Shown piece by piece: positions 7,247-59,103 of a stretch of DNA of 64,000 bases. The DNA is from Chryseobacterium scophthalmum (GTDB lineage Bacteria > Bacteroidota > Bacteroidia > Flavobacteriales > Weeksellaceae), in contig NZ_FSRQ01000001.1 in assembly GCF_900143185.1 (NCBI RefSeq), positions 930,001 to 994,000 of the forward strand, given 5' to 3'. Each line of letters opens with the position of its first letter. The first letter of the stretch is position 1. The notes below the pieces were generated by a model that was not told the origin of the DNA, made no database searches, and saw only the letters and a program-made list of their open reading frames with translations. The translations under genes were made by a program, and so were the position numbers.

Positions 7247-7320
7247 TTGTGAATGGTCAAATGTCAATTAACTTCGTTGTCAATTTTAAAATTCACTATT
7301 GACTTGCGAAGCAAAATTCC
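7247..7320. repeat. Degenerate 7-nt repeat array downstream of etfA
   Basis: The sequence can be read in 7-base steps such as ATTGTGA, ATGGTCA, AATGTCA. The second half (TTGTCAA ... ATTCACT, ATTGACT) contains the complementary words, so the two halves could partly pair. It is noncoding and lies between etfA and its terminator. Confidence 0.5.
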
Positions 7321-7332
7321 CCATTAACCTTT

Positions 7333-8280
7333 CTATCCTTTAAGTGCTTTAATTTTCTCTGTTAATGCAGGGATAATCTGGAAAGCATCTCCTACAACAC
7401 CGTAATCAGCTGATTTGAAGAACGGAGCTTCAGCATCACTGTTGATTACAACGATTGTTTTAGAAGAGTTTACTCCAGCTAAATGCTGAATCGCTCCAGA
7501 AATACCAATTGCAATATAAAGATTAGGTGCAATTGCTTTACCTGTTTGACCTACGTGTTCTGTGTGAGGTCTCCATCCGATGTCTGAAACCGGCTTTGAA
7601 CAAGCTGTTGCAGCACCCAAAACATTTGCTAAATCTTCTACCATTCCCCAGTTTTCAGGACCTTTCATTCCTCTACCTGCAGAAACTACTACTTCAGCTT
7701 CTTTCAAGTCTAATTTCCCTGAACTCTGCTCGTGAGAGATTACTTTAGTATCTTCATTAGCAACAGAAAGATTTTTCACCTCTTCTGAACCAGAAACTGC
7801 ATTTTCTTTAACACCGAAAGCATTTTGAGAAACAGTAAGAATTACTCCTGTTCCTTCAGCTTTTGCATGCATGAAACCTTTTCCTGAGAACGCTTTTCTT
7901 TTCACCTGAAACGGAGACTGGCTTTCCGGAGCTTCCAAAACATTAGTAATTAAAGAATAATTTTTCATTACAGCCAACATTGGCGCTACAGAAGAAGCAT
8001 CTGTTGTGTGAGGAAAAACAAGGATATTTCCGTCTGCAACTTCACTTACAGCTTGTGCATAAGCTTTTGCTGAGAAATTTTCAAGACCTTCGTCTTTGAT
8101 ATTGATTACGTTTGTTGCTCCATATTTATACAATAAATCTGAAGAATCTGTTGGGTTTACGGAGATTGCCGTAACGGTATCACCCGCCTGATCTGCCACT
8201 GCTTTAGCATAAGAAACTGCTTCAAAAGCTGCTTTCTTGTAAACACCGTTTATATTTTCTGCGTATACGAATACTGCCAT
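7333..8280 (-). CDS. etfA: Electron transfer flavoprotein alpha subunit
   Basis: The 315-residue protein carries the FAD-binding C-terminal domain of EtfA: VSAGRGMKGPENWGMV near residues 199-214, then CSKPVSDIGWRPHTEHVGQT, GISGAIQHLAG and the final INSDAEAPFFKSADYGVVGD. The N-terminal domain is the alpha/beta fold shared with EtfB. With EtfB it forms a soluble heterodimer that takes electrons from acyl-CoA dehydrogenases and passes them to ETF:quinone oxidoreductase. It follows etfB after 111 bases filled by a heptamer repeat array, an unusually large gap for this pair. Confidence 0.95.
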   Translation of the reverse strand: MAVFVYAENINGVYKKAAFEAVSYAKAVADQAGDTVTAISVNPTDSSDLLYKYGATNVINIKDEGLENFSAKAYAQAVSEVADGNILVFPHTTDASSVAPMLAVMKNYSLITNVLEAPESQSPFQVKRKAFSGKGFMHAKAEGTGVILTVSQNAFGVKENAVSGSEEVKNLSVANEDTKVISHEQSSGKLDLKEAEVVVSAGRGMKGPENWGMVEDLANVLGAATACSKPVSDIGWRPHTEHVGQTGKAIAPNLYIAIGISGAIQHLAGVNSSKTIVVINSDAEAPFFKSADYGVVGDAFQIIPALTEKIKALKG

Positions 8281-8289
8281 TTTAATTTT

Positions 8290-8345
8290 GTTTAAAGTTT
8301 AAGGTTTAATGTTCAAGATTTGAGATTTGACGTTTGAAATTTAAA
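8290..8345. repeat. Eight-unit heptanucleotide array between etfB and etfA
   Basis: Eight consecutive 7-base units are visible without any phase change: GTTTAAA, GTTTAAG, GTTTAAT, GTTCAAG, ATTTGAG, ATTTGAC, GTTTGAA, ATTTAAA. The consensus is RTTTRAN. The adjoining 8346-8390 continues less regularly with words of the opposite strand (AATCAAA, TTGAATC), so a hairpin is possible. The array lies inside the etfBA transcript. Confidence 0.85.
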
Positions 8346-8391
8346 CTCCGAATCAAACCACTTGAATCTTTTACTTTTTACTTGGTTCTTA

Positions 8392-9138
8392 TTAAATCAC
8401 TTTAGCTTCCTCGTGAAGAAGTCTTACCAACTCATCTAAATTATCCGGAGAAACGATCTTCACAGCTGCTCTTGGTGGAACAGAATCATAAGAAACTCCC
8501 TGAACTTTCACCTCAGATGAAGTAGGCTCTACAACCTGCAAAGGTTTTGTTCTTGCAGACATAATTCCTCTCATGTTTGGAATAATCAAATCTTTTTCGT
8601 CAACTAATCCTTTCTGACCAGCAATTACAGCAGGTAATTTCACAGAAATAGTTTCTTTACCACCTTCAATTTCTCTTACAGCAGTCGCCTCAGCTCCGTT
8701 CACATCCAAACCAACAGAAGCGTTTACAAAAGGTTGATTCAACAACTGAGCAACCATTCCAGGAACAGAACCTCCGTTGTAATCAATCGATTCTTTACCA
8801 CAAAGAATTAAGTCGTATCCTCCATTCTGAGCTACAGAAGCAATTTCTTTCGCTGTAGAATAGCTGTCTTTCGGGTCAAGATTTACTCTTACTCCGTCAT
8901 TTGCACCAATTGCCAAAGCTTTTCTGATTACCGGCTCAGTTCCAGCATCTCCTACGTTTAAAACTGTAACAGTTGCTCCCTGAGATTCTTGTAATTTGAT
9001 TGCTTTCGTTAATGCGAATTCGTCTAACGGATTGATTACCCACTGAATTCCGTTTTTGTCGAATGCAGATTTATCTGCTGTAAAATTGATTTTTGAAGTA
9101 GTATCCGGAACACTACTGATGCAAACTAATATTTTCAT
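8392..9138 (-). CDS. etfB: Electron transfer flavoprotein beta subunit
   Basis: The 248-residue protein begins MKILVCISSVPDT and contains NPLDEFALTKAIKLQE near residue 36, DLILCGKESIDYNGGSVPGM near residue 105, and the C-terminal arm, all typical of EtfB. It binds AMP and part of FAD and docks to acyl-CoA dehydrogenases. The gene is first in the etfBA transcript. The 278-base region upstream holds an 18-bp perfect palindrome at 9365-9382 and a larger stem-loop at 9165-9223, both candidate control sites. Confidence 0.95.
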   Translation of the reverse strand: MKILVCISSVPDTTSKINFTADKSAFDKNGIQWVINPLDEFALTKAIKLQESQGATVTVLNVGDAGTEPVIRKALAIGANDGVRVNLDPKDSYSTAKEIASVAQNGGYDLILCGKESIDYNGGSVPGMVAQLLNQPFVNASVGLDVNGAEATAVREIEGGKETISVKLPAVIAGQKGLVDEKDLIIPNMRGIMSARTKPLQVVEPTSSEVKVQGVSYDSVPPRAAVKIVSPDNLDELVRLLHEEAKVI

Positions 9139-9164
9139 ATGTAGATTTTATTGTTTTTAATTGC

Positions 9165-9223
9165 CATATGTTATCGCTTGTTTCATTGGTAAAAGCGTTT
9201 CCAAATCATGGCGATTTCATATG
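9165..9223. repeat. Stem-loop in the etfB leader
   Basis: CATATGTTATCGC at 9165-9177 is nearly complementary to GCGATTTCATATG at 9211-9223, with a short inner CGCTT/AAGCG pair. It lies between etfB and its probable promoter, so it would be in the 5' untranslated RNA or be part of a dispersed element. The downstream bases to 9270 include a cgccttacggctcc fragment like that near 743. Confidence 0.4.
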
Positions 9224-9364
9224 TTGTTTTAATTATTTTCATTTACCAAATGTCGCCTTACGGCTCCATGTGCGTTATAAATTTTTATTATCAGCCTGTT
9301 AAAATCCTGAGATTTTCGGAAGCTATTTTTGTTTGTTAAGTTTTGTAAATATAAATAAAAAATA

Positions 9365-9382
9365 TATTATGCATGCATAATA
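9365..9382. promoter_or_regulatory. 18-bp perfect palindrome upstream of etfBA
   Basis: TATTATGCATGCATAATA is a perfect 18-bp palindrome with no T tract on either side, so it looks like a dimeric repressor or activator site rather than a terminator. It lies 227 bases before etfB and 35 bases after the end of the short-chain dehydrogenase gene. No regulator gene is adjacent. Confidence 0.4.
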
Positions 9383-9416
9383 CTTATTTAATTATTATTC
9401 AGCGCATTATAAGTTT

Positions 9417-10124
9417 CTAAGACTTTGGTTTTGTTGCTCTAAACTCAATCTTGCTTGGTAAAACTCTTGGATTCATCTTCAAAATATCCAATACCAAATT
9501 CCCCATATCATCCGGCTGAATTTTCCAGGCATCTTTTTCTGAAGGAATATTTCCGTTAAAATTTGTCGCAACTGAGCCCGGCATTATTACAGTAGATTTA
9601 ATATTATACTTTCTTAAATCGATCATAGCAGCCTGAGTAAAGCCTACTACACCAAACTTGGAAGCGTTGTAACCTGTTCCGTTTTCGAAGAAATTGGCTC
9701 CTGCCAAACTTGAAATTGTAATATAATATCCTTCTGTTTTTTTCAATTCTTCCACTGAAGCTTTTAAAGTATGAAAAACTCCAGTTAAGTTGGTATCAAT
9801 CATCTCATTCCATTCTTCGGAACTTAGTTCATCAACAGGTTTGAAAATTCCCAATCCTGCATTTGCAATTACAAAATCTAATCTTCCGAATTTGTCTATG
9901 ATGCTTTTGACTGCATTAGACTCATTATCCATATTTTTAACATCTGAAATCAAACCTAAAACATTAGCTGAATATTGTTTTAATTCATTCTCTACTTTCT
10001 CAACCTCTTCTTTTTTTCTTCCCGAAAATGCAACTGAAACATTATTTTGAAGTAATACTTTTGCAATTCCGTATCCTACTCCTTTTGTTCCTCCCGTAAT
10101 ATATGCTACTTTATTTTCTATCAT
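9417..10124 (-). CDS. Short-chain dehydrogenase/reductase
   Basis: This 235-residue classical SDR has the cofactor loop TGGTKGVG at residues 10-17, the NAG motif at 88-90, a catalytic Ser near 138 and the YxxxK pair Tyr152/Lys156 in YNASKFG. The reaction is an NAD(P)-dependent oxidation or reduction of a carbonyl or alcohol; the substrate is unknown. The acidic or basic choice at the end of beta-2 (FSGRKKEEV) favours NADPH because of the Arg-Lys pair. It seems monocistronic, with no partner close enough to suggest a pathway. Confidence 0.9.
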   Translation of the reverse strand: MIENKVAYITGGTKGVGYGIAKVLLQNNVSVAFSGRKKEEVEKVENELKQYSANVLGLISDVKNMDNESNAVKSIIDKFGRLDFVIANAGLGIFKPVDELSSEEWNEMIDTNLTGVFHTLKASVEELKKTEGYYITISSLAGANFFENGTGYNASKFGVVGFTQAAMIDLRKYNIKSTVIMPGSVATNFNGNIPSEKDAWKIQPDDMGNLVLDILKMNPRVLPSKIEFRATKPKS

Positions 10125-10154
10125 TGATTAATCTTTTTAAAACTCTAAAATAAC

Positions 10155-10180
10155 AAAAACGCCCCAATTGGAGCGTTTTT
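10155..10180 (-). terminator. Terminator of the T9SS cargo gene
   Basis: On the minus strand AAAAACGCTCC pairs with GGGGCGTTTTT across an AATT loop, with one G-U wobble that only works in the minus-strand RNA. It lies 25 bases after the stop codon at 10205. Confidence 0.8.
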
Positions 10181-10204
10181 AATATACTGAGATTGATCAG
10201 TAAT

Positions 10205-11128
10205 TTATTTTTTGATGAATTTTTCTGTAGAAACACCATCTTTTGTTTCAACATTGATTAAATAAGTTCCTGCTGGAAGACTTCTAACATCTACTTTGTC
10301 GCCATCTAATTTTACATTTATATTTTTACCAGAAATATCAAAAACAGAAACACTGCCTATTTTATTTTCCGTTTTAATCGCCAAGAAATCTGTAGTTGGA
10401 TTAGGATATACTGATAGTAATTGTTTTTTAGCAATTGCATCGTTTACACCTAAATTAACGCGATCAACTGAAAAAGTATCAATACCTATAATATCCGAAT
10501 TAGCACCTGTAGTTCCACCATTTGTTACAAAATATCTGAAACCGAATTTTATAGGAACAGGCGTACTACCAACTCCAGTGATAGTAAAACTATATTGAGT
10601 CCAAGTTTTTGGATACACAAAGCCGGCTGCAAGTGCAGAATTTATCGTAACTCCAAGAGTAGTAAAAGAACCGAGATCCGTAGGACCTGTTGAAGGCACT
10701 ACGGTTGTGGCTGCAGTACTATAGCGCAATTCCAAACGGTCTGGATAATCCATTGTTCCGTCAGTTCCTTTTCTGCTGTAAAAGCTAACTACATCACCAT
10801 CTTTAACATTAACAACAGGACTAATCAACCAATTACTTATAGTTCCTGACCCTGTTGTAGATGAATAATTTACTAATGCAAAAGAATTAGCTCCACCAGC
10901 TTGCCCTACTGGAACTCCGCCAATCCCGCTACTAAAAATGGAATTAGTAGATGTAGAGGATGATGTGTAGGTTGCCTTACTCCATATTGTAGTTGCATTA
11001 GCAGAGGTACTTTGATTCGTCATTGCCCAACTTGCAGAAAAAACGGTATCAAAACCATAGCTATAAACATTTTGAGCATTCAATAATCTTAACCCAACTA
11101 GGGCACTTAATAGTAAAATTTTCTTCAT
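10205..11128 (-). CDS. Secreted protein with T9SS type A sorting domain
   Basis: The 307-residue protein has a signal peptide (MKKILLLSALVGLRLLNAQN), a central choice-of-anchor-J-like beta domain (SNWLISPVVNVKDGDVVSFY near residues 98-118), and a C-terminal sorting domain from about residue 237 (LSVYPNPTTDFLAIKT ... LPAGTYLINVETKDG) ending KFIKK. It should cross the inner membrane by Sec and the outer membrane by the type IX system, with loss of the C-terminal domain. No catalytic site is visible, so it may be an adhesin or a glycan-binding protein. It is flanked by its own terminator and seems to be a single-gene unit. Confidence 0.85.
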   Translation of the reverse strand: MKKILLLSALVGLRLLNAQNVYSYGFDTVFSASWAMTNQSTSANATTIWSKATYTSSSTSTNSIFSSGIGGVPVGQAGGANSFALVNYSSTTGSGTISNWLISPVVNVKDGDVVSFYSRKGTDGTMDYPDRLELRYSTAATTVVPSTGPTDLGSFTTLGVTINSALAAGFVYPKTWTQYSFTITGVGSTPVPIKFGFRYFVTNGGTTGANSDIIGIDTFSVDRVNLGVNDAIAKKQLLSVYPNPTTDFLAIKTENKIGSVSVFDISGKNINVKLDGDKVDVRSLPAGTYLINVETKDGVSTEKFIKK

Positions 11129-11202
11129 GATATATTAATTTAAGTTATATGCTAAAATTAAAGAAAATAATTCAATCCAACAAAAAATATCAATATTAAA
11201 TA

Positions 11203-11236
11203 AATAATCCTCAAGAAAAATTTCTTAAGGATTATT
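11203..11236 (-). terminator. Terminator of the M20 dipeptidase
   Basis: A 16-bp stem (AATAATCCTTAAGAAA on the minus strand) has one U-G wobble in the minus-strand RNA and almost no loop, so the inner pairs probably open. It lies 22 bases after the dipeptidase stop codon. Confidence 0.7.
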
Positions 11237-11258
11237 ATTTAATAAATTAATTCACTTT

Positions 11259-12641: not shown

Positions 12642-12741
12642 TGTAAATTAAATTTTGTTAAAATTAAAAAAATTGTATCGCCACAGCAAACAAATTAGCT
12701 TTAATTTCTTTTGAAAAAATTTAATCTTGTTTCAACAAAAA

Positions 12742-14565: not shown

Positions 14566-15729
14566 TTATTCAAACATTTCAGCCCAACGAACGGCTTTTA
14601 ATTCATTTTGATGATATAATTCCTCAATAGATTTTTTTAGCTCTAATTTGGGGTATAAATTAACGCCAATCAGTTTTATTTTACCTTCTTCCACCCATTT
14701 TTGTTCTTCAACAGCGTGATCGTAGATGTTTTTCTGGATAATTCCTTGTTTTAAAAGTTCCAGATAACCTCCTTTTTCTTCGATTTCAACAAAGAATTCC
14801 CAAGATTTATCAGCGATTTGATTGGTAATATCTTCTATGTAATAACTTCCGTTGGATGCGTCTTCAAAGACATTGATGATACTTTCGTAAGCCAAGACAA
14901 TCTGTTGTTTAAAAGAAATTTCTTCTGAATTTTCTGTGCTTTTTTCAACCAGATAATTCGTACTGTAAACCGCATCTGCTCCACCAATCATGGCAGAAGC
15001 CAATTCTAAAGTCGAGCGAATAAGATTATTTTCATTATCTGAAATTGATTTATTTCTAAGTGAGGTTTCAGCAAAAATATATGGAATCTCGTTTAAATCA
15101 TATTCTTTAGATAACTGATTAAAAACCAATTTAAAAGCACGGATTTTAGCCATTTCAAAGAAATAGTTTCCTCCGACAGCAATCCTAAAAATCAGCTTAT
15201 TGATGATTTCTGCTCCGTAAATTTCAATCAATTCTTTAGTTTTTGCCAAAGCAATCCCCAATTGCTGATAAATTGCAGCTCCGGCATTTTGATGAAGCGA
15301 AATATCTACACAAATATTTCTTTTAAAATCTTTTGCCAAAAGCTCTTTTACCAGCTGATCATTAATTTCTGCATTTTGTTCATTAAAAACATCAATCAAA
15401 GAGAAATATTGATCTTCATCTTGCGGACTGATGTGCTCTGCCAAATCCTTATTGTTAACAAAAACAGTTTTTCCTACAAGATTTTCTACATTTTCATTCA
15501 ATAAAAATGCAAAAACATCATCTTCAAGACTTTCGTGGTATGTTGCTACCAAATGGGTGCTTTCTTCTACTTTCGGAAGGTTTACCATTGGTTTTTCCAC
15601 AGAATTATAAAAAGGTTTTACATCAATTCCTTCTAAATTTTCTTTTTTCAGGATCGTGTAAATATCTTCCGTTTTAAGTTGTTTTTTAACAAGATTTTTC
15701 CAGCTTGAGAAAGTTTCTGAATTTGACAT
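14566..15729 (-). CDS. mutA: Methylmalonyl-CoA mutase small (beta) subunit
   Basis: The 387-residue protein matches the small subunit of the two-subunit B12 enzyme that interconverts methylmalonyl-CoA and succinyl-CoA. It has the TIM-barrel-like segment ending around VDISLHQNAGAAIYQQLGIA and RSTLELASAMIGGADAVYST, but no C-terminal cobalamin-binding domain with DxHxxG, as expected for the noncatalytic subunit. The usual small subunit is longer (about 600 residues in actinobacteria); Bacteroidota versions are shorter. The large catalytic subunit is not next to it and is not in the window. It follows uridine kinase and a DivIC-like gene on the same strand. Confidence 0.85.
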   Translation of the reverse strand: MSNSETFSSWKNLVKKQLKTEDIYTILKKENLEGIDVKPFYNSVEKPMVNLPKVEESTHLVATYHESLEDDVFAFLLNENVENLVGKTVFVNNKDLAEHISPQDEDQYFSLIDVFNEQNAEINDQLVKELLAKDFKRNICVDISLHQNAGAAIYQQLGIALAKTKELIEIYGAEIINKLIFRIAVGGNYFFEMAKIRAFKLVFNQLSKEYDLNEIPYIFAETSLRNKSISDNENNLIRSTLELASAMIGGADAVYSTNYLVEKSTENSEEISFKQQIVLAYESIINVFEDASNGSYYIEDITNQIADKSWEFFVEIEEKGGYLELLKQGIIQKNIYDHAVEEQKWVEEGKIKLIGVNLYPKLELKKSIEELYHQNELKAVRWAEMFE

Positions 15730-15731
15730 AA

Positions 15732-15825
15732 ATGATGGGTAATATGTAATGGGTAATGAACAATTTTGATCCGCTTATTTATTTTAAATTGACAGCGACT
15801 CTAATTGACATTCACAGTTCACGTT
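15732..15825. repeat. Heptamer repeat patches in the mutA leader
   Basis: Five 7-base units run from 15732: ATGATGG, GTAATAT, GTAATGG, GTAATGA, ACAATTT. After a break, 15786-15825 continues with TTGACAG, CGACTCT, AATTGAC, ATTCACA, GTTCACG. The first patch resembles the one after the E2 gene at 35606. The region is the 101-base spacer between mutA and the DivIC-like gene. Confidence 0.6.
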
Positions 15826-16843: not shown

Positions 16844-16878
16844 TTATGATGGAAGTTTGAAGTCTGAAGCCGGATGTT
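16844..16878. repeat. Five-unit heptamer array upstream of udk
   Basis: The units are TTATGAT, GGAAGTT, TGAAGTC, TGAAGCC, GGATGTT. The words closely resemble the arrays at 46083 and 58977 (TGATGGAAG, GGATG). It overlaps the expected -33 region of the udk promoter. Confidence 0.65.
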
Positions 16879-18733: not shown

Positions 18734-19603
18734 TTACGAGTTTTTCAAAGCTTCTGCTCCTGAAACAATTTCTAGGATCTCGTTGGTAATTGCAGCCTGT
18801 CTTGCTTTGTTATAGAAAATCTTAAGATCATTTCTAAGGGCTTCAGCATTATCTGTTGCTTTGTGCATTGCCGTCATTCTCGCACCGTGTTCTGAAGCTA
18901 CAGAATCTAAAACAGCTTTGAAAACCTGAGTTTTAATAGATTTAGGAATCAAATTATCCAAAATCTCATTTCTATTAGGTTCAAAGATATAATCAGTTTC
19001 TGTTTGTCCTTCTTCTTTCTCAGTTTCAACCATTGAGATCGGAAGAACTTGCTCTGTGATCACTTCCTGAGTTGCAGCGTTGATAAATTTATTGTAAACA
19101 ACATAAACTTCATCAAATTTACCTTCAATAAAACTTGTCATTACACTTTCAGTAATGTTTGCTACTTTATCGAAAGTAAGATTATCAAAAATTGCACTTT
19201 CATTTGAAAACACCGAACGGTTTTTTCTTACAGCATCATAAACTTTTTTACCAATAGTAAGAATTTCAATTTCGTACTGAGCGTTGTTCTGAAACTGGTG
19301 GTTTAATTCTTTTACAACAGATGAGTTGAAAGCACCTGCCAAACCTCTGTTTGAAGTTACAGCAATAAATAGTACTTTTTTTACTTCTCTTTTCTGAGCG
19401 TAAACAGAAACCTGATCAGGATCTGAACTAGAATTTACATTCTGAATGATCTCCTGAAGTTTTTCAGAATAAGGTCTCAACATTACGATGGCATCTTGTG
19501 CTTTTTTTAGTTTCGCTGCCGAAACCATTTTCATAGCACGTGTAATTTGCATCGTAGATGAAATTGAAGTGATCCTTCCTCGTATTTCTTTTAAGTTTGC
19601 CAT
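18734..19603 (-). CDS. atpG: ATP synthase gamma subunit
   Basis: The 289-residue protein is the central stalk of F1. It starts MANLKEIRGRITSISSTMQI and ends MHKATDNAEALRNDLKIFYN...ITNEILEIVSGAEAL, the paired N- and C-terminal coiled-coil helices that rotate inside the alpha3beta3 ring. It is the last gene of the operon and is separated from atpA by 84 bases that are almost entirely a heptamer-repeat hairpin, in contrast with the tight spacing of the upstream genes. Confidence 0.97.
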   Translation of the reverse strand: MANLKEIRGRITSISSTMQITRAMKMVSAAKLKKAQDAIVMLRPYSEKLQEIIQNVNSSSDPDQVSVYAQKREVKKVLFIAVTSNRGLAGAFNSSVVKELNHQFQNNAQYEIEILTIGKKVYDAVRKNRSVFSNESAIFDNLTFDKVANITESVMTSFIEGKFDEVYVVYNKFINAATQEVITEQVLPISMVETEKEEGQTETDYIFEPNRNEILDNLIPKSIKTQVFKAVLDSVASEHGARMTAMHKATDNAEALRNDLKIFYNKARQAAITNEILEIVSGAEALKNS

Positions 19604-19609
19604 ATTGGG

Positions 19610-19685
19610 TTAGTTGTTGGTTGTCGGTTGTTGGTTGCTAGTTTTAGAAAATTCTGTCAACTATCAACCAAAAACCATCAACTAA
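19610..19685. repeat. Heptamer-repeat hairpin between atpA and atpG
   Basis: The left arm is TTAGTTG, TTGGTTG, TCGGTTG, TTGGTTG, CTAGTTT (19610-19644). The right arm is CAACTAT, CAACCAA, AAACCAT, CAACTAA (19658-19685), the complement of the left with one unit fewer. The arms would form a hairpin of about 26 bp in RNA or single-stranded DNA. It fills the spacer inside the ATP synthase operon. Confidence 0.85.
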
Positions 19686-19687
19686 TT

Positions 19688-21265
19688 TTAGTTATATTTT
19701 GAAGCTAAATCTGTAGCAACTTGCTTAAGAACACCTGTAATATCGTTATCGATTTTTCCAGCTTTAAGGGCAGCCATAGTTTCAGGGTGCTTAGATCTTA
19801 AAAACTCGATGTATTCGATTTGGAATTCTTTTACTTTCTTGATAGGAACGTTTCTCATTAAGTTCTCTGTACCTGCATAGATCATAGCAACTTGGCTATC
19901 TACAGGAAGTGGAGAGTTAACCGGCTGCTTCAACAACTCTACGTTTCTTTCTCCTTTAGAGATAACTGCTAAAGTAGAAGCATCAAGATCAGAACCGAAT
20001 TTAGCAAACGCTTCCAATTCTTTATATTGAGCCTGGTCTAATTTAAGAGTTCCAGAAACTTTTTTCATTGATTTAATCTGAGCATTACCTCCAACACGAG
20101 ATACAGAAATACCTACGTTGATTGCTGGACGAACCCCTGAGTTGAACAAGTCAGACTCCAAGAAAATCTGTCCGTCAGTAATAGAGATTACGTTCGTTGG
20201 AATATACGCAGAAACGTCACCCGCCTGAGTTTCGATAATTGGAAGTGCAGTTAATGAACCACCACCTTTTACTAAAGGTCTTAGAGATTCAGGTAAATCA
20301 TTCATTTGGCTTGCAATAGTATCATCAGCGATTACTTTTGCCGCTCTTTCCAATAATCTTGAGTGAAGATAGAAAACGTCTCCAGGATAAGCCTCACGTC
20401 CCGGTGGTCTTCTCAATAGTAGAGAAAGCTCACGGTAAGCTACCGCTTGTTTAGATAAATCATCATAAATGATCAAAGCCGGTCTACCAGTATCTCTGAA
20501 GAATTCACCGATAGATGCACCTGCCATTGCAGAGTAAACCTGCATTGGAACCGGATCTGAAGCATTAGCTGCAACAATTACTGTATAAGCTAAAGCACCT
20601 TTATCTGATAAAGTTTTTACAATCTGAGCTACTGTAGAAGCTTTTTGTCCGATTGCAACATATATACAATATACAGGATTTCCTGCATCAAAAAATTCTT
20701 TTTGGTTGATGATTGTATCAATAGCAACAGTAGTTTTACCTGTCTGTCTGTCACCAATGATAAGCTCTCTCTGACCTCTTCCTACAGGGATCATAGAGTC
20801 GATCGCAACAATACCTGTTTGTAAAGGCTCAGTTACAGGCTGTCTGTAGATAACACCCGGAGCTTTTCTTTCTAATGGCATTTCGTATAGATCTCCTGTG
20901 ATAGGACCTTTACCATCGATTGGGTTACCTAAAGTATCAACTACTCTACCTAACATTCCTTCTCCTACTTTGATAGAAGAAATTCTGTTTGTTCTTTTTA
21001 CTGTGTCTCCTTCTCTTACCAATTTACTTTCCCCTAAAAGAGCAACACCTACGTTGTCTTCTTCAAGGTTTAGTACGATACCTTCTACATCGCTAGCAAA
21101 TTTCACCAACTCACCGTATTGTACATTTTCTAACCCGTAAACACGAGCAATACCATCACCGATGGTAAGAACTGTACCTACTTCCTCAACATTAGATTGA
21201 GTATCGAAGTTGGCCAATTGCTGTTTTAAGATCGCAGATACTTCTGCTGGATTTATTTCTGCCAT
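19688..21265 (-). CDS. atpA: ATP synthase alpha subunit
   Basis: The 525-residue F1 alpha subunit has the P-loop GDRQTGKT at residues 171-178, the [20 protein letters not shown] stretch near residue 290 and the arginine-finger region [16 protein letters not shown] near 388-403. It binds noncatalytic nucleotide and contributes to the catalytic site of beta. Its gene starts 18 bases after atpH. The beta and epsilon genes are not in this operon, which is the usual Bacteroidota arrangement. Confidence 0.98.
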
Positions 21266-39107: not shown

Positions 39108-39410
39108 ATGGCAATAGATGATATGGCTAAACAAGCCTCAGCTGGAGGAGAATCTGAAGTAAAATTCCTTACACCACTTGATATCAACACTAAAACTGAT
39201 AAAAAGTACTGTAGATTCAAAAAATTCGGAATTAAGCACGTTGATTACAAAGATGCTGATTTCTTATTACAATTCGTAAACGAGCAAGGTAAAATTTTAC
39301 CTAGAAGATACACTGGAACTTCTTTGAAATACCAAAGAAAAGTTTCTTCTGCTATCAAAAGAGCTAGACACTTAGCTTTGATGCCTTACGTAGCTGACTT
39401 ATTGAAATAA
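39108..39410 (+). CDS. rpsR: Ribosomal protein bS18
   Basis: The 100-residue protein has the core [20 protein letters not shown] near residues 32-51 and [20 protein letters not shown] near 65-84. The single Cys near residue 33 is of the C+ type, but no zinc-binding CxxC set is visible. The N-terminal 20 residues ([17 protein letters not shown]) are an acidic extension that is typical of flavobacteria. It lies 35 bases after rpsF. Confidence 0.96.
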
Positions 39411-39425: not shown

Positions 39426-39451
39426 AAAAGAAGAGAGCAATCTCTTCTTTT
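39426..39451 (+). terminator. Hairpin between rpsR and rplI
   Basis: AAAAGAAGAGA / TCTCTTCTTTT forms a perfect 11-bp stem with a GCAA tetraloop. Only a short T run follows (TTTTG), so it may be a partial terminator or an mRNA processing or stabilising hairpin that sets the ratio of bS18 to bL9. Confidence 0.6.
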
Positions 39452-39483
39452 GTTGCTGAATAAATATTAATTCTAACGATTTA

Positions 39484-39551
39484 GATAAGAGATAAAAGAT
39501 AAGAGATAAAAGATTTTTAAAGTCTTGATTCTTGATTCTTGGTTCTTGGCT
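39484..39551. repeat. Two heptamer arrays in the rplI leader
   Basis: The first array is GATAAGA, GATAAAA, GATAAGA, GATAAAA, GATTTTT (39484-39518). After five bases the second is CTTGATT, CTTGATT, CTTGGTT, CTTGGCT (39524-39551). The two use different words, so this is not one inverted repeat. It lies between the rpsR hairpin and the rplI start. Confidence 0.85.
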
Positions 39552-39575
39552 CTAAAACTAAAACGGACAACAACA

Positions 39576-40094: not shown

Positions 40095-40122
40095 GATTTA
40101 AAGAGATTTTCTCAAAAATATG

Positions 40123-40144
40123 AACCACTTCATTTGAAGTGGTT
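40123..40144 (+). terminator. Terminator of the rpsF-rpsR-rplI operon
   Basis: AACCACTTCA / TGAAGTGGTT forms a 10-bp stem with a minimal loop, followed by T residues, 28 bases after the rplI stop codon. Confidence 0.88.
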
Positions 40145-40183
40145 TTTTGTTTTTAGTATGTTTTTTAGAAGCTATTTCCCGCT

Positions 40184-40246
40184 AACCACTCATACTCCTC
40201 ACTCTAAACCCATTCCCACACCAAAACCCTCAAACTTTCCCACTCC
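40184..40246. repeat. Nine-unit heptamer array
   Basis: The units read AACCACT, CATACTC, CTCACTC, TAAACCC, ATTCCCA, CACCAAA, ACCCTCA, AACTTTC, CCACTCC. The strand is strongly C/A rich. Its words resemble the 40653 array and the reverse complement of the 44032 array (ACTCTAAAAC). Confidence 0.65.
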
Positions 40247-40482
40247 TTGTTGCGGGGTAACCGTTTTTATCGGGGCTAGGAAATCTGTCTTTCATTCCAT
40301 TTCTGTCATTGCGAGAAGTTTAGTGAAGAAGCAATTTTTAGCCTCATAAACCACCCCGTCAAAAATTCTTTCGAATTTTCGCCACCCCTCCAAAGGAAGG
40401 GAATTCGTGCGTTAGAAGTTTTTTCATTGCGAGAAGCGTAGCGACAAAGTAATCTCGATATAAAATTAAAATCTACGTCCAC

Positions 40483-40566
40483 TTTGTCATTCCTTAGGAA
40501 TCTAAACTCTTTTTGTAGAGACTGATTTGTAAAAACCATTGCCTAGATCCTGTCAGGATGACAAAC
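40483..40566. repeat. Inverted-repeat element, copy A
   Basis: The left arm starts TTTGTCATTCCTTAGGAATC and continues TAAAC. The right arm (40541-40566) is GCCTAGATCC-TGTCAGGATG-ACAAAC, partly complementary. Copy B with the same ends lies at 44242-44317. The spacing of the arms (about 33 bases) is similar in both. Confidence 0.7.
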
Positions 40567-40652
40567 TTTATGAAGATCTTTATTAATGATTCTTTTAAAG
40601 AGATTGCTTCATCACATCATTTCTCGCAACGACACAAAAAACTTCGCAGTAA

Positions 40653-40706
40653 AAACTCACTAGCTCTAAAACCATCCAACTCTCAAACACATCACTCTCC
40701 ACCTAA
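40653..40706. repeat. Heptamer array at the 3' end of the AraC gene
   Basis: The units read AAACTCA, CTAGCTC, TAAAACC, ATCCAAC, TCTCAAA, CACATCA, CTCTCCA, CCTAATC. The words match the reverse complement of the array after the HlyD gene at 44032, so the two flank the efflux genes in opposite orientation. Confidence 0.65.
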
Positions 40707-44031: not shown

Positions 44032-44124
44032 AGTTTGAGTGTCGGAGTGTTTTAGAGTTTTAGAGTAAAAACATTCTGCTCGAAATTTTCAAATTATCTC
44101 ATTGTCAAATTTTCAAATTAAAAT
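44032..44124. repeat. Two heptamer arrays after the HlyD gene
   Basis: The first array starts right after the stop codon: AGTTTGA, GTGTCGG, AGTGTTT, TAGAGTT, TTAGAGT (44032-44066). The second is AAATTTT, CAAATTA, TCTCATT, GTCAAAT, TTTCAAA (44083-44117). They lie in the gap between the fusion-protein gene and the pump gene. Confidence 0.7.
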
Positions 44125-44241
44125 ATTTTAGCGGAAAGACAGAATCGCAATTTTGCCATCTTACCTTTACTTTTATCCCTTGCTTTTTTGTCTTTTCGCA
44201 TTTTTTCACTAATAATAATTTTATTTAAACTCTTTAAGCAA

Positions 44242-44317
44242 GTTTGTCATTCCGTAGCGATCTAAACATAGTATTCTATAGGAAAGATTGGAGCCTAGAT
44301 CCCTGCGGAATTACAAG
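44242..44317. repeat. Inverted-repeat element, copy B
   Basis: The ends match copy A at 40483: GTTTGTCATTCC on the left and CCTAGATCC with an ACAA end on the right. The central spacers differ. Both copies lie near the efflux genes, about 3.7 kb apart. Confidence 0.7.
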
Positions 44318-44355
44318 CTCTGTATAATGATAAACGTTGAAGGAATGACTCAACT

Positions 44356-44433
44356 CTAGCCCCGATCGCAACGGCATCCTTTTGTGTAGCGAAGCGAAAC
44401 AAAAGATATAGTGAAAAGCGGGATCAAGCTCCT
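44356..44433. repeat. CTAGCCCCGAT element with internal hairpin
   Basis: It starts CTAGCCCCGATCGCAACGGC, has a CTTTTGT / ACAAAAG stem around GTAGCGAAGCGA-like bases, and ends AAGCGGGATCAAGCTCCT. A truncated reverse-strand copy (ATCGGGGCTAG preceded by TAACCGTTTTT) lies at about 40248-40280. I recall such an element being frequent in flavobacterial intergenic regions; this is memory, not a search result. Confidence 0.65.
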
Positions 44434-44508
44434 AAAAAATTAAACAAAATAATATAAAACACAATCGGTAATTGGCTAATAAGCTGATTCGCTTTTTAAA
44501 GAAAAATC

Positions 44509-46071: not shown

Positions 46072-46082
46072 GCTTTTGTTAA

Positions 46083-46162
46083 GGTTGGAAGCTTGATGAT
46101 GGAAGTCGGAAGTAAGTATAGTGCTTATTAAACTTCCAGCTTCCCTCTTCAGACTTCCAGCC
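46083..46162. repeat. Convergent heptamer hairpin after the MFS gene
   Basis: Left arm (46083-46113) units GGTTGGA, AGCTTGA, TGATGGA, AGTCGGA; right arm (46132-46162) units ACTTCCA, GCTTCCC, TCTTCAG, ACTTCCA. The arms are complementary at 24 of 31 positions and several differences are T/C, which still pair as G-U in one strand. It lies between convergent genes and may serve as a bidirectional terminator-like hairpin. Confidence 0.75.
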
Positions 46163-46168
46163 TAAATT

Positions 46169-54831: not shown

Positions 54832-54878
54832 ATCGTATTTTTTATTTTTTTAATTGATATTTATTAAGACTTTGAGAA

Positions 54879-54934
54879 AATAGATAAAAGATGAAAGACT
54901 AATTTCTAACCTCTAATTTCTAGTTTCTATTTTT
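54879..54934. repeat. Eight-unit heptamer array between sucA and odhB
   Basis: Units in order: AATAGAT, AAAAGAT, GAAAGAC, TAATTTC, TAACCTC, TAATTTC, TAGTTTC, TATTTTT. On the coding strand the second part reads TAGAAA- and TTAGAGG-type words. It fills the spacer inside the sucA-odhB transcript. Confidence 0.82.
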
Positions 54935-54936
54935 TA

Positions 54937-57750
54937 TTAAGCTGTTACTGGTCTTTTAGCCGGAGCATCGTCTCTGTCGAATACTCTGTTGATTACAGCA
55001 TTTTGATTTTTTTCAAACATTTTGTGACTTCCCGGAGCCGGTGCACCACTTGGTACCGGAGAAACAACCTGAATTCCTGTATCTCTGAAATTTCTTAAGA
55101 TATAAGACCAAGCTCCCATGTTTTCTGGTTCTTCCTGAGCCCAAATGATTGATTTTCTGTTATCATATTTAGCAAAAATAGCTTCGATAGCATCAGTTTG
55201 AAGCGGATATAACTGCTCGAATCTTACCAATGCAACATTTTCACAATTTAATTCTTCTTTTTTAGCTAATAATTCGAAGTATAATTTACCTGAACAAAGA
55301 ACTAATTTTTCAACTTTTGCAGGATCTGCAGTAGGATCATCTAAAATCGGCTGGAATCCTTTGTTTGAGAAATCTTCAAGCGGCGAAACCACTTTCGGAT
55401 GTCTTAATAAAGATTTTGGACTCATCACGATCAATGGCTTTCTGAATGCCCATTTCAACTGTCTTCTCAATAAGTGGAAATAGTTTGCCGGAGAAGTAAT
55501 ATTCGCAACAACCATATTCTCATTAGCACAAAGCGTAAGGAATCTCTCCAATCTTGCTGAAGAGTGTTCTGCACCCTGTCCTTCTGAACCGTGAGGTAAC
55601 AACATTACCAAACCGTCCTGAATCTTCCATTTTTCTTCTGCTGCAGCCAAATACTGGTCAACAATAATCTGAGCTCCGTTGACGAAATCTCCGAACTGAG
55701 CTTCCCAAATCGTTAAAGTATTCGGAGATGCCATTGCATACCCGTAATCAAATCCTAAAACTCCGTATTCTGAAAGGTGAGAGTTGAAAACATCAAATCT
55801 GCTTTCTGAAACTTCTTTTAAAGGAACATATTCTTCTTCTGTATCCTCAGTTTTTACAACAGCGTGTCTGTGAGAGAAAGTACCTCTTTCTACATCTTCA
55901 CCAGAAATTCTTACGTTGTGACCTTCCACAAGAAGTGTAGCATAAGCCAACCACTCTCCAAGAGCCCAATCTAAAGAGTTTGCCTCAATAGCTTTGATTC
56001 TGTTATCGAAAAGTCTTGTAATCTTATTGATGAATTTTTTATCAGCAGGAAGTGTTGACATTTTAATTGCCAATTCTTTCAGCTTAGCTAAGTCATATTT
56101 TGTGTCAACAGCATCTTGTACAGCTCCTCTTTTTGCAATCGGGAAATTCGTCCAGTCATCTGCCATGAAAATATCCATCACATTCTTTTCGATTTCCTTA
56201 GAAGCATCAAAGTCTTTATCTAAAAGCGCTTTGAATTCTGTTTCCATTTTTGCAATTACATCATTTGACGTAACGTTGTCTTTCAACAGTTTATCTTTAT
56301 AGATCTCTCTTGGGTTCTGATGTTTTGAGATTAATTTATACAAATTAGGCTGTGTAAATCTTGGCTCATCCCCTTCGTTATGACCATATTTTCTGTATCC
56401 TAATAAATCGATATAAACATCTTTACCAAATTTAGCTCTGAAATCAGCAGCAAAATGCATCGCATGAACTACCGCTTCTGCATCATCTGCATTTACGTGC
56501 ATTACAGGAGATTCTGTTACTTTCGCAACATCTGTACAATACGTAGAAGATCTTGCATCCATATAATTGGTTGTAAATGAAACCTGGTTATTTACAACAA
56601 TATGAACTGTACCTCCCGTTTTGTACCCGTCCAAAGTCATCATCTGAGCAACTTCGTAAGCAATACCCTGACCTGCCAATGCACCATCACCATGAATGAT
56701 GATTGGTAAAACTTTAGAGTAATCTTTATACTTATCGTCTACTTTTGCACGACAAATACCTTCTACCAAAGCAGCAACAGTCTCTAAGTGAGACGGGTTT
56801 GGTGTCAAATTAATTGCAACCTCTTCTCCTGAAGCTGTTTTTATTTTTTTAGATGAACCTAAGTGATATTTTACGTCACCAGAGAATACATCTTCTTCAA
56901 ATTCTTTTCCTTCAAATTCTGAGAAAATCTGCTTGTAAGATTTCCCGAAAATATTGGTTAAAACATTTAATCTTCCTCTGTGAGCCATCCCCAGAACAAC
57001 CTCATCAACTCCTAACTGAGAAGATCTTGAGATCAACTGATCCAAAGCAGGAATTAAAGTTTCGCCACCTTCCAGTGAGAATCTTTTTTGCCCAACAAAT
57101 TTTGTATGAAGATAATTTTCAAACGCAACCGCCTGATTTAATTTTAATAAAATTTCAGTTTTTTCGTTCGCCGAAAGAATTGGGTGGTTTTCGTTTACCT
57201 GAAGCCACTGCTTGATAAAGTCTTTCTCCTGAACGTTGTTGATGTGCATGTATTCCACACCAATAGAATCGCAGTAGATGCTTTGCAAGTGTGTAATCAA
57301 ATCCTGTAAAGTTGCAGGACCTTTCATACCTGTTTCAACAGCGCAGTTGAATTTTGTATTTAAATCAGACTTGTCAAGTCCAAAATTTTCAATATCCAAA
57401 GTTGGCGTATAATGCCTTCTTTCACGCACCGGATTGGTTTTTGTAAACAAGTGACCTCTCGTTCTGTAAGCTTCAATAAGGTTTACCACCTTAAATTCCT
57501 TCTTGATGTGCTCCGGAACTTCACCGTTTGAAGCCGCCTGAGAAATCTGCTGCACTGCAGGTGAAGATTTCACCGAATTTTGCACGTACTGGATGCTTTC
57601 GTCATCACTGTAGTTCTCAATGGCAAAATCAAAGCCTTGAAAAAAGGCTTTCCATGATGGTTCTAAAGAGTCAGGAAATTTTAAGTATTGTTGGTATAAA
57701 TCCTCAATTAACTGAGAATGAGCTGCGTTTAGGAATGAAAATCTGTCCAT
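54937..57750 (-). CDS. sucA: 2-Oxoglutarate dehydrogenase E1
   Basis: The 937-residue thiamine-diphosphate enzyme decarboxylates 2-oxoglutarate for the TCA cycle. The start is typical of OdhA/SucA (FSFLNAAHSQLIEDLYQQYL), followed by the E1 core with LGMAHRGRLNVLTNIFGKSY, the ThDP-binding GDGALAGQGIAYE near residues 354-366, and the C-terminal transketolase-like half (LLPHGSEGQGAEHSSARLER). The length is normal. It leads a transcript with odhB and has a TAnnTTTG box. No E3 gene is adjacent. Confidence 0.97.
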   Translation of the reverse strand: MDRFSFLNAAHSQLIEDLYQQYLKFPDSLEPSWKAFFQGFDFAIENYSDDESIQYVQNSVKSSPAVQQISQAASNGEVPEHIKKEFKVVNLIEAYRTRGHLFTKTNPVRERRHYTPTLDIENFGLDKSDLNTKFNCAVETGMKGPATLQDLITHLQSIYCDSIGVEYMHINNVQEKDFIKQWLQVNENHPILSANEKTEILLKLNQAVAFENYLHTKFVGQKRFSLEGGETLIPALDQLISRSSQLGVDEVVLGMAHRGRLNVLTNIFGKSYKQIFSEFEGKEFEEDVFSGDVKYHLGSSKKIKTASGEEVAINLTPNPSHLETVAALVEGICRAKVDDKYKDYSKVLPIIIHGDGALAGQGIAYEVAQMMTLDGYKTGGTVHIVVNNQVSFTTNYMDARSSTYCTDVAKVTESPVMHVNADDAEAVVHAMHFAADFRAKFGKDVYIDLLGYRKYGHNEGDEPRFTQPNLYKLISKHQNPREIYKDKLLKDNVTSNDVIAKMETEFKALLDKDFDASKEIEKNVMDIFMADDWTNFPIAKRGAVQDAVDTKYDLAKLKELAIKMSTLPADKKFINKITRLFDNRIKAIEANSLDWALGEWLAYATLLVEGHNVRISGEDVERGTFSHRHAVVKTEDTEEEYVPLKEVSESRFDVFNSHLSEYGVLGFDYGYAMASPNTLTIWEAQFGDFVNGAQIIVDQYLAAAEEKWKIQDGLVMLLPHGSEGQGAEHSSARLERFLTLCANENMVVANITSPANYFHLLRRQLKWAFRKPLIVMSPKSLLRHPKVVSPLEDFSNKGFQPILDDPTADPAKVEKLVLCSGKLYFELLAKKEELNCENVALVRFEQLYPLQTDAIEAIFAKYDNRKSIIWAQEEPENMGAWSYILRNFRDTGIQVVSPVPSGAPAPGSHKMFEKNQNAVINRVFDRDDAPAKRPVTA

Positions 57751-57796
57751 TATTACAGTTTATCTATTATTAAATTTTGTTTAACGTATTAATCTT

Positions 57797-57804
57797 CAAA
57801 TTTA
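57797..57804 (-). promoter_or_regulatory. -7 box of the sucA-odhB operon
   Basis: The minus strand reads TAAATTTG, a perfect TAnnTTTG match 47 bases before the start codon. Confidence 0.5.
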
Positions 57805-57873
57805 ATAAAAAAAACCGAGTTGGGATAACCTCAAAACCTTAAAAAAAATATAAAAAAGAGAATTGGGAAAAAA

Positions 57874-58914
57874 TCATCTGTAAACAGAGAGAGAAAGTTT
57901 CATATTAACATCCTGACCTTCCACAGGCGGTTCTATAAAAGTCTGATAAACATCACCATAGCGCATTTCATCTTTCTTTGCTTTTTGTATAAGTTGCTGA
58001 ATTGCTTTTATTCTTGCCGGATAAGATCCTTTGAAATACATTACATAATTTTCTGTTGGGCTCACAGATCTGAAACTGAAATTATTATCTGAAATTCCAA
58101 TTTTTTTTGATAATGGAATTCCGAAAAAATAAGATACCTCATTGTCTTTAAAATTATCGGCATCGGTAATAAGAACGGGATACCCCACTTCATCACTTTT
58201 TTTACCTAGATCCATCGTCACGAAATTATTTATTTTGTTATAATTCATGACAATATTTCTGTACAAAGCATCTTTTTTATTAGAAGTACTTACATTTACT
58301 CCCAAAATCATTTTCTCCTCTTCCTTTTCCACCATAAGACTGTCATATTTTATGGCAGCCAGCTGGTTATCTTTTTCTACTTTATTTCCTAAAACATTTT
58401 TAAGATTAAGCATGCTTTTCTCGATGTTATCAGCAAATTTATCTTCCGTCCAAAAATTCTGAGCTCTTGATAAAACTGATAACTTCGGAGTATGAACATA
58501 CCAAGTGATCTTTGTTTTTTCAGCAGAAACTGCGGTAAATTTCACATCAATTAAAGTAGGATTTTCATCTTCATCTTCGAAAAGCTGATACCTCAACGTT
58601 TTGTTTGGGTTTTCGTAACGGATAAACATTTCGCCACCATCGTCGCTTTTAGGATCATTATAGCTGATTGCACTTCCTTTTCCTTCGTAAGGTGTGTAAT
58701 AATCAATCGTAATGGTTTTTGAGCTGGAGAAAAAATTATTCCAACGGGTGAAATTCTGTAAATTATTAAACTGATTGAAGACCTTTTCTAAAGGATAATC
58801 TACTTCCTTCTCTATCGTAAATTCTTTACTTTCATCTACAAAATAATACATGGAAGCCGCATAAGCTCCCACTAACAAAACTATAATAACCGCTATGATT
58901 TTGAAAAAACGCAT
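57874..58914 (-). CDS. SRPBCC-domain membrane-anchored protein
   Basis: The 346-residue protein starts at 58914 with MRFFKIIAVIIVLLVGAYAA, an N-terminal membrane anchor or signal. A longer frame adds MYYFCT, but a -7 box lies inside that stretch, so the shorter start is chosen. Residues 35-185 form an SRPBCC / polyketide-cyclase-like domain (DYPLEKVFNQFNNLQNFTRW). The second half, with a Gly-Val-Asn-rich segment and the ending GQDVNMKLSLSVYR, resembles a GyrI-like or AraC effector-binding domain. The ligand and role are unknown. Confidence 0.75.
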   Translation of the reverse strand: MRFFKIIAVIIVLLVGAYAASMYYFVDESKEFTIEKEVDYPLEKVFNQFNNLQNFTRWNNFFSSSKTITIDYYTPYEGKGSAISYNDPKSDDGGEMFIRYENPNKTLRYQLFEDEDENPTLIDVKFTAVSAEKTKITWYVHTPKLSVLSRAQNFWTEDKFADNIEKSMLNLKNVLGNKVEKDNQLAAIKYDSLMVEKEEEKMILGVNVSTSNKKDALYRNIVMNYNKINNFVTMDLGKKSDEVGYPVLITDADNFKDNEVSYFFGIPLSKKIGISDNNFSFRSVSPTENYVMYFKGSYPARIKAIQQLIQKAKKDEMRYGDVYQTFIEPPVEGQDVNMKLSLSVYR

Positions 58915-58918
58915 CGTA

Positions 58919-58926
58919 CAAAAGTA
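58919..58926 (-). promoter_or_regulatory. -7 box, possibly giving a leaderless transcript
   Basis: The minus strand reads TACTTTTG and ends 4 bases from the ATG at 58914. This would give a transcript with no leader, like those proposed at 7159 and 24197. Confidence 0.4.
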
Positions 58927-58940
58927 ATACAAATAAAAAA

Positions 58941-58962
58941 AGTGACCAATATCTTGATCACT
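58941..58962 (-). terminator. Terminator of the glgBAC operon
   Basis: AGTGATCAA / TTGGTCACT on the minus strand forms a 9-bp stem with one wobble, followed by seven T residues. It lies about 145 bases after the glgC stop codon, beyond the 58977 repeat. Confidence 0.7.
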
Positions 58963-58976
58963 CTTGTTTTTTATTT

Positions 58977-59103
58977 TTGATGGATGATGGAAGCTTGATG
59001 GCGGATGTTAATATGCAAATATTTAAGTTTTGATTAATAACAACCAAACTTCAAAGTTATAATCTCTCAAAACATCCATCTTCCAGCATCAAACTTCTAA
59101 CCT
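58977..59103. repeat. Heptamer arms downstream of glgC
   Basis: Left arm: TTGATGG, ATGATGG, AAGCTTG, ATGGCGG, ATGTTAA (58977-59011). Right arm: CCATCTT, CCAGCAT, CAAACTT, CTAACCT and neighbouring words (about 59075-59103) complementary to the left except for one extra unit. It lies between the glgC stop and its terminator. Confidence 0.7.

Follow-up and report, generated by a model that had tools for sequence, protein, structure and literature searches.

The 64-kb stretch analysed here (the window, part of a 4.47-Mb Chryseobacterium genome) carries in a number of its intergenic spacers tandem repeats with a period of 7 nt, which a first-pass annotation had described as a family of at least thirteen arrays keeping a strict 7-nt register. 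Three gene junctions are central to our analysis. On the reverse strand, atpG (ATP synthase gamma, 18734..19603; PF00231) lies downstream of a gene (19688..21265; PF00006, PF00306, PF02874) that gene order and full-length matches suggest to be atpA, encoding the alpha rather than the beta subunit. The gap between the two is taken up by a two-armed heptad palindrome with the words GGTTGAT/AACCAAC (19608..19687, reverse strand), which lies 0 nt from the atpA stop codon and 4 nt from the atpG start, and has a predicted fold of -25.2 kcal/mol (z -6.5). On the forward strand, rpsR (ribosomal protein S18, 39108..39410; PF01084) and rplI (ribosomal protein L9, 39576..40094; PF03948, PF01281) are separated by a plain upstream stem-loop read from the sequence (39426..39451) and by a stem-loop cassette of the type we call form B (39478..39564), with five AGA(N4) units in the left arm, five TCT(N4) units in the right arm, a lag-7 score of 32 and a predicted ladder-like fold of -19.5 kcal/mol (z -2.7). 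The third junction holds a two-armed heptad array on the reverse strand (54875..54936, score 25), directly 3' of the sucA stop codon and 43 nt before the sucB start; the fold of its spacer is no better than shuffled (z -0.4).

The period itself was evaluated against dinucleotide shuffles in the window and in a further 800 kb of the same genome (together 864 kb, with 572 spacers of 110,890 nt). In the window spacers, identity at lag 7 is 0.345 versus 0.311 in the shuffles (z 6.5), the highest z among lags 2–30, and the runner-up is lag 14, a harmonic of 7 (z 3.8). Lag 7 again comes first in the further 800 kb (z 8.3), where it is less set apart, with lags 2, 3 and 6 at z 6.4–6.9. A count of local arrays is the sharper measure: with a score of at least 14 the 572 spacers contain 24 period-7 arrays versus 1.0–1.6 in shuffled sequence, and with a score of at least 18 they contain 15 versus 0.1, while the observed and shuffled numbers (score at least 14) are 4 and 1.8 for period 6, 8 and 1.6 for period 8, and 1 and 2.0 for period 9. 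By this measure periods 4, 5, 9, 10 and 11 are at chance, and 6 and 8 are somewhat raised. The lag-7 signal is real, and chance or base composition as its source is ruled out by the shuffles and the neighbouring periods. Period-7 arrays of score at least 12 occur in 33 of the 572 spacers, and their words are mostly AT-rich among the 34 own-genome arrays listed. As had also been claimed, the arrays avoid coding regions, because the 752,630 nt of open reading frames (ORFs) from the same 864 kb contain only 2 of score at least 14, versus the 24 in spacers.

The elements are of two kinds: one-armed arrays, which are frequently perfect, and degenerate two-armed palindromes of 70–95 nt with heptads in both arms, whose predicted helices consist of rungs of 3–7 bp interrupted at intervals of about 7 nt. 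When each array was taken with up to 70 nt on either side, inverted repeats of score at least 12 were found in 14 of the 33 array spacers versus 3.5 expected, and of score at least 10 in 25 versus 11.6. That some arrays are two-armed and form hairpins had been noted in the first-pass annotation; this proves to be no mere detail, as it is in the two-armed form that the elements are dispersed, occupy gene junctions and are exchanged from species to species. Three one-armed arrays of (CTATCAA)n or (CCATCAA)n elsewhere in the same genome (L287, L288, L296) immediately follow strong terminator-like hairpins and draw on the vocabulary of the two-armed family.

The two-armed element of the atpA-atpG gap has 27 further matches in its own genome (E<=0.01) at 25 distinct places, several of them near-full length with both arms, and a two-armed GGAAG/CTTCC element (46082..46168) has 10 further places at the same threshold. 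A covariance model, R1, built from eight copies of the atpA-atpG-type element (the window copy, one of the training sequences, scores 86.1 bits) identified 17 loci in the own genome and about 14 in one other Chryseobacterium (G119); it found little or nothing in most of the 13 further Chryseobacterium searched, but some loci in genomes of other families. Eighteen loci, the 17 R1 loci and one weaker match (L276), were examined for their position relative to genes. Same-direction gene pairs hold 14 of them, and at 13 of these 14 the palindrome constitutes the whole stop-to-start gap, its two ends being offset by -17 to +5 nt and by -2 to +31 nt; stop positions are sure, and starts were taken as the first ATG, so that start distances may be too short. 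Without the eight training loci the proportion is 5 of 6. Random landing does not explain this, because gaps of up to 25 nt make up only 1.8% (1,245 of 68,584 nt) of same-direction intergenic DNA; spacers of 60–110 nt separate 99 of the 562 same-direction pairs. The fold is strong (z <= -3.4) at 11 of the 14 same-direction loci.

At the atpA-atpG junction of Chryseobacterium (best 30 of the 39 genomes with a match) a cassette stands between TAA and ATG in 30 of 30 loci. Eight are of the window's type (type I, with GGTTGAT/AACCAAC) and 22 are of a second type with different words (type II, GTTTAAGG/CCTTAAAC). The fold z ranges from -3.9 to -7.6 in the 29 cassettes placed by script; the thirtieth (L330) was found by motif. 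The type II motif caught 21 of the 22 loci read as type II, with L333 differing in it. Mean identity between the window cassette and eight type II cassettes is 44%, versus 87% for the atpG starts. Where the outer CCTTAAAC copy is mutated (L327, L334–L336) the predicted fold uses the inner copy, as it also does in L332, although both copies are intact there.

Outside the genus we inspected 22 further atpA-atpG loci (L203, L204, L337–L356), 12 of them placed by script and 10 not placed; the placements of L346, L349 and L353 rest on 25–49% identity. One genome of another family (G018) has a type I cassette at 76% identity with flanks at 64–67%, its congener G002 has octamers in the same gap, G048 has a weaker word set, and G175, from another family of the class, has a ladder of TAGATAA. 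The gap is 58 nt long and without period in G030, 0–24 nt long at six loci (two weakly placed), and 87 nt long without period at one weakly placed locus. The element at this junction is recurrent but not universal, because the loci outside the genus include such short or non-periodic gaps.

The rpsR-rplI gap could be read in 59 of 61 loci (the contigs of L001 and L053 end before it), and all 59 have a predicted stem-loop just 5' of rplI: 30 of 29–34 nt, 2 of 51 nt and 27 of 75–96 nt. Stem-loops shorter than 60 nt have a median z of -5.1 and longer ones of -2.5, and 51 of the 59 are at z about -2 or lower. We assigned the stem-loops to six forms by motifs of our own definition; on a tree of 58 species built from seven proteins, these forms change 18 times, versus a mean of 26.8 and a minimum of 23 when shuffled. 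The sister species L021, L049, L057 and L048, whose flanks are 96–99% identical, carry three forms that are 50–69% identical to each other. The L048 cassette is 96.5% identical to that of L036, with the right flank at 78%, and the cassettes of the window and of G096, a member of another genus, agree at 96.6% of positions, with flanks at 81–82%. Recent short-tract exchange would best explain these cases, because the non-coding cassettes are more alike than the genes beside them. In the L054 spacer TTAGCTT-like heptads stand in place of the plain upstream stem-loop, so that the second stem-loop of the gap, too, is rebuilt from heptads. The right arm of the window cassette has a reverse-complemented 31-nt match in two other species (97% at L030:8953-8983, 90% at L039:8993-9023), more than 400 nt from the rpsR-rplI gap; arms may be common to different gaps.

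Phase and pairing were analysed in the long rpsR-rplI forms, with 8 sequences of form B (7 from the tree and L113) and 9 of form A (8 of the 12 in the tree and L102, leaving out L022, L025, L051, L056 and four further A-like loci). In the right arm the invariant columns, which are the TCT cores, fall into a 7-column phase (p 0.016 for form B, 0.0004 for form A) and show no phase at periods 5, 6, 8 or 9. The named rungs of the two forms pair in 89.6% and 86.9% of cells, versus at most 62% and 52% when slid. Comparison of orthologous gaps points to an intercistronic RNA stem-loop, short of proof. Since related species carry unrelated versions at the two gaps compared in depth, it is probably the fold rather than the letters that is kept.

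Could these elements be mobile? A non-autonomous element of the kind of miniature inverted-repeat transposable elements (MITEs) or REPINs (hairpins formed by repetitive extragenic palindromic, REP, sequences), moved by a putative transposase and with arms that happen to be heptad arrays, would account for the dispersed copies and their lineage-specific numbers: R1 strand-hits number 33 in the own genome, 27 in G119, 10 in G127 and 0 in G031, G122 and G130 (0–10 in others of the genus), with 13, 10 and 2 in genomes of other families (G001, G002, G003). It would also fit the filled and empty sites at sucA-sucB, where about 66 nt are gained or lost directly after the stop codon. We nevertheless regard it as very unlikely, as no target-site duplication was recognised by eye in the AT-rich DNA at sucA-sucB and the swaps at rpsR-rplI replace the cassette in place, with none added. 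REP-associated tyrosine transposases (RAYTs) in particular are rejected as movers: at 4 of 4 own-genome loci with a Y1 transposase gene (Y1_Tnp) the adjacent spacers contain palindromes without heptads (lag-7 score <=7), and a heptad spacer stands one gene further off in L299. The palindromes flanking these RAYT-like genes (L299–L302), such as GCTCCGTAGGAGC and ATTCCTACGGAAT, presumably belong to a separate REP system.

We suggest that the two-armed heptad arrays, often 70–95 nt long and between genes of the same direction, are mRNA stem-loops that tune the translation or stability of the downstream gene; we would put the probability of this reading at roughly 0.4. Translation is the most direct target, because in Flavobacterium johnsoniae, one of the Bacteroidota that lack Shine-Dalgarno signals, structure around the start codon is described to tune initiation, according to the parts covered of PMC6847099. 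In the atpA-atpG gap, the element would keep the region around the atpG start next to the stem and limit gamma relative to alpha, in an operon deduced from gene order. ATP synthase contains three alpha subunits and one gamma, so less gamma than alpha should be needed and a stem beside the atpG start would be expected. Heptads would be born by replication slippage in steps of 7 (sometimes 8) nt, as perfect one-armed arrays and the gain of a 14-nt unit suggest; where an inverted partner is present, the pair would be kept for its fold and not its letters; with repeated units, the stem could re-pair in another register after decay of one unit; and cassettes may move by short-tract recombination aided by common words and conserved flanks. 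A wider generalization, according to which Bacteroidia possess letter-independent, exchangeable RNA parts with 7-nt (sometimes 8-nt) rungs that stand from stop to start, determine how much is made from the downstream gene and pass as short cassettes from one locus, species or genus to another, a junction such as atpA-atpG keeping its fold while its words are replaced wholesale, appears possible but rather doubtful.

The stem-loops might instead act on the upstream message, protecting its 3' end or serving as leaky terminators that make the amounts of the two halves of an operon unequal, in the manner of REP sequences and bacterial interspersed mosaic elements (BIMEs). Several elements stand directly 3' of stop codons, and arrays, which as first described occur between same-direction genes and elsewhere, are densest in same-direction spacers (0.373 per kb versus 0.154 in convergent and 0.233 in divergent ones), a difference resting on 25, 2 and 5 arrays. 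Yet at none of the 14 same-direction family loci does TTTT follow the stem within 12 nt, where an intrinsic terminator has a U-run. Inspection by eye showed none behind the stems of atpA-atpG and rpsR-rplI either, and the elements extend as far as the start codon, so that initiation offers a more direct target. A role at the mRNA end therefore seems improbable to us.

Several observations weigh against a tuning of the downstream gene by a conserved stem-loop. Part of the elements fold no better than shuffled DNA, including 3 of the 14 same-direction family loci (L276, L270 and L305, none in the training set) and 6 of the 7 filled sucA-sucB spacers (z -0.5 to +2.2), while 8 of the 59 rpsR-rplI cassettes have z above -2 (e.g. 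L055 -0.3, L014 -0.7, L004 -1.1). Nor do heptad spacers stand out in general by a strong fold: among same-direction spacers of 60–130 nt in the 864 kb, a heptad score of at least 9 is found in 5 of 42 strongly folding versus 14 of 83 weaker ones. The sucA-sucB element is present in 7 and absent from 23 of the best 30 of 60 genomes searched, and four well-placed Bacteroidia outside the genus have an atpA-atpG gap of 7–24 nt and no element. Many arrays are one-armed, for instance CCTAAAA repeated 10 times or CTATCAA 7 times, and the copies of the GGAAG element mostly do not fill junctions. In the long rpsR-rplI forms the 7-phase of conservation is not significant in the left arm (p 0.56 for form B, 0.14 for form A), and covariation, sought as proof of structure in changes on both sides of the stem, is no greater than in shuffles, so that the structure rests on prediction and recurrence rather than on compensatory change. 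The arms have a common vocabulary, but in 23 elements delimited by hand their unit order is no better matched than shuffled (Fisher p 0.20); the arms therefore do not resemble recent inverted duplicates of one another, and fold-back copying of one arm from the other is not supported. Finally, shuffled queries match the genome set as well (124 hits from 160 queries; the 32 real queries gave 194 hits counted as non-orthologous, which include some sucA-sucB orthologues), so single E-values are optimistic.

Much of this would be accommodated by neutral slippage, in which some Bacteroidia often duplicate 7-nt (and some 8-nt) tandems that persist without function in non-coding DNA, with arms and folds as by-products. 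It would account for perfect one-armed arrays with varied words, for presence, absence and unremarkable folds at sucA-sucB, and for the 14-nt unit gained in one arm in L134; alignment of orthologous spacers, which the first-pass annotation had recommended, indeed revealed both this gain of units and the gain or loss of the whole element. Mere tolerance would likewise leave coding DNA almost free of arrays. Heptamers have been reported to be the most abundant class of long repeats, and slippage tied to the contact length of the polymerase has been proposed (Mrazek 2007, as cited in the parts covered of PMC4679880 and PMC4692102). Neutrality is at odds with the excess of inverted partners over chance, with predicted folds in 59 of 59 rpsR-rplI and 30 of 30 atpA-atpG loci despite unrelated letters, with cassettes that are more alike than their coding flanks across genera, and with the filling of junctions; all in all we consider it rather unlikely and less probable than the stem-loop reading, although the elements listed above that fold no better than shuffled DNA count somewhat in its favour.

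Heptad arrays recur patchily in parts of the class Bacteroidia. With a score of at least 14, observed and shuffled numbers of period-7 arrays are 73 and 2.9 in 60 Chryseobacterium loci, 7 and 0.2 in another genus of the family (G080, G096, G110; the family count excludes G057, which contains an N-run), 5 and 0.4 in another family of the order (f3, from 3 of 11 genomes), 1 and 0.2 in further families of the order, and 8 and 0.2 in other families of the class (from G175 and G201, 2 of 8 genomes). Small samples from outside the class (14 kb of spacers) and from Escherichia coli K-12 (25 kb) gave 0 versus 0.0. Period 8 is raised too (45 versus 2.1 in the 60 Chryseobacterium loci, 4 versus 0.1 in the class sample), many of its high scores coming from orthologues of the window's gap at 44032, and octad arrays deserve the same survey as heptads.

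The thirteen window sites do not form a single class. Lags 4–12 were scored at each, and the lag-7 score was compared with 500 dinucleotide shuffles of the same spacer (p values are uncorrected for 13 tests). Eight sites reach p <= 0.01, and a strict register without phase change holds for the best of them only. Five are strong, each with p 0.002: 8290 (score 25), 19610 (18), 39484 (32), 54879 (25) and 58977 (13), among them the two that had been singled out as the best cases, 8290 and 54879. Weaker sites are 46083 (8, p 0.004), 15732 (9, p 0.010) and 16844 (10, p 0.010), the last with a higher score at lag 5 (12). The remaining five fail: lag 7 is no better than the 500 shuffles at 7247 (p 0.094), 35606 (0.25), 40184 (0.58) and 40653 (0.93), and 44032 has period 8 (lag-8 score 15, lag-7 score 3). 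The word sets reported from unlinked loci do recur, but the GAGTTTTAGAGT set is not of period 7. By blastn against near relatives, 4 of 10 window sites found relatives.

Among the individual features, the array at 8290..8345 consists of eight units (GTTTAAA/GTTTAAG/ATTTGAG) in the etfB-etfA spacer, between genes identified as ETF by Pfam, and ends 9 nt before the etfA start; no relatives of this spacer were found in the small stretches compared. A short GTAATGG array (15735..15758; period 7, 3.4 copies by Tandem Repeats Finder, TRF) stands directly 5' of the start of the gene at 14566-15729, and a short GGAAGTT array occupies 16852..16874. The GGAAG element introduced above lies in a convergent spacer and has a predicted fold of -40.5 kcal/mol. 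The GATGG array (58964..59007) has complementary words near 59070-59106 and an inverted-repeat score of 12 versus a shuffled maximum of 10. The 608-nt spacer 3' of rplI (40095-40702) contains TCATTGCGAGAAG-type repeats in both orientations, which look like a separate repeat element, flanked by the C-rich, non-periodic stretches at 40184 and 40653. The period-8 arrays detected by TRF at 44049..44119 (GTTTTAGA and AAATTTTC) have counterparts in several Chryseobacterium orthologues of the 44032-44508 gap (among L001–L060), with scores up to 94 (L018), and are adjoined by a Flavo-1 RNA (Rfam RF01705, 44354-44429), the only Rfam model at gathering score in the window and not itself on an array.

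If folds are indeed kept while sequences are swapped, ordinary motif and alignment searches would miss such parts, which may help to explain unequal outputs along one operon in bacteria without Shine-Dalgarno signals. The atpA-atpG and rpsR-rplI gaps provide natural sets of alternative cassettes in near-identical backgrounds, and with them one can put to a direct test why some bacteria are so rich in heptamer repeats. Should the arrays prove functionless, a 7-nt step limited to some lineages would still point to a specific property of replication or repair.

Heterocystous cyanobacteria, members of a different phylum, possess heptamer tandem repeats outside genes, the short tandemly repeated repetitive (STRR) sequences, and our arrays are STRR-like in the broad sense, with tandem 7-nt units above chance and confined to non-coding DNA. 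REP/BIME elements and REPINs with their RAYT transposases are likewise dispersed intergenic palindromes, often inside operons; unlike the elements described here they have no 7-nt period, and the RAYT-like genes of our genome adjoin other palindromes, so that the association of a REPIN with a cognate Y1 gene is not seen. The literature searched, mostly excluding subscription papers, contained no degenerate two-armed heptad palindromes filling stop-to-start junctions, no heptad element at one junction across families with different words, and no swapped cassettes. Heptamer repeats between genes as such are already known from cyanobacteria, Xanthomonas, Beggiatoaceae and some Bacteroidetes, going by the parts covered of PMC4679880 and PMC4692102. 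The first-pass annotation knew of no described counterpart in Bacteroidota, yet such repeats had been described there: TAACTGA arrays were reported from Beggiatoaceae, Cyanobacteria and five Bacteroidetes, and larger heptamer-repeat assemblages from Elizabethkingia anophelis (MacGregor 2015, PMC4679880, parts covered). According to the same parts, those 7-nt arrays often stand just upstream of start codons, other heptamers are found nearby in Gramella forsetii, A. sublithincola and E. anophelis, and relatives without repeats have shorter gaps, much like the gaps studied here; theirs is one fixed word, however, and these parts do not describe stem-loop cassettes or site-conserved folds. The TAACTGA doublet TAACTGATAACTGA occurs neither in the window nor in any of the 356 loci; beyond these, the own genome was not searched for it. 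Heptameric intergenic repeats are also described in Xanthomonas (GGGAATC) and Nostoc (GGGGA(C/T)T), some of them within operons (pecE-pecF) and with one inverted pair noted, and two related Xanthomonas have them mostly in the same gaps with variable repeat sequence, which is similar to our case (PMC4692102, parts covered). None of the 34 own-genome arrays listed is a GGG-repeat of their type, with runs of 3–4 G per unit. While the repeats of Xanthomonas and Nostoc are of one G-rich word type with a proposed G-quadruplex role (PMC4692102, same parts), those of Chryseobacterium comprise many AT-rich words, degenerate units and two-armed, junction-filling palindromes, whose cassettes are swapped.

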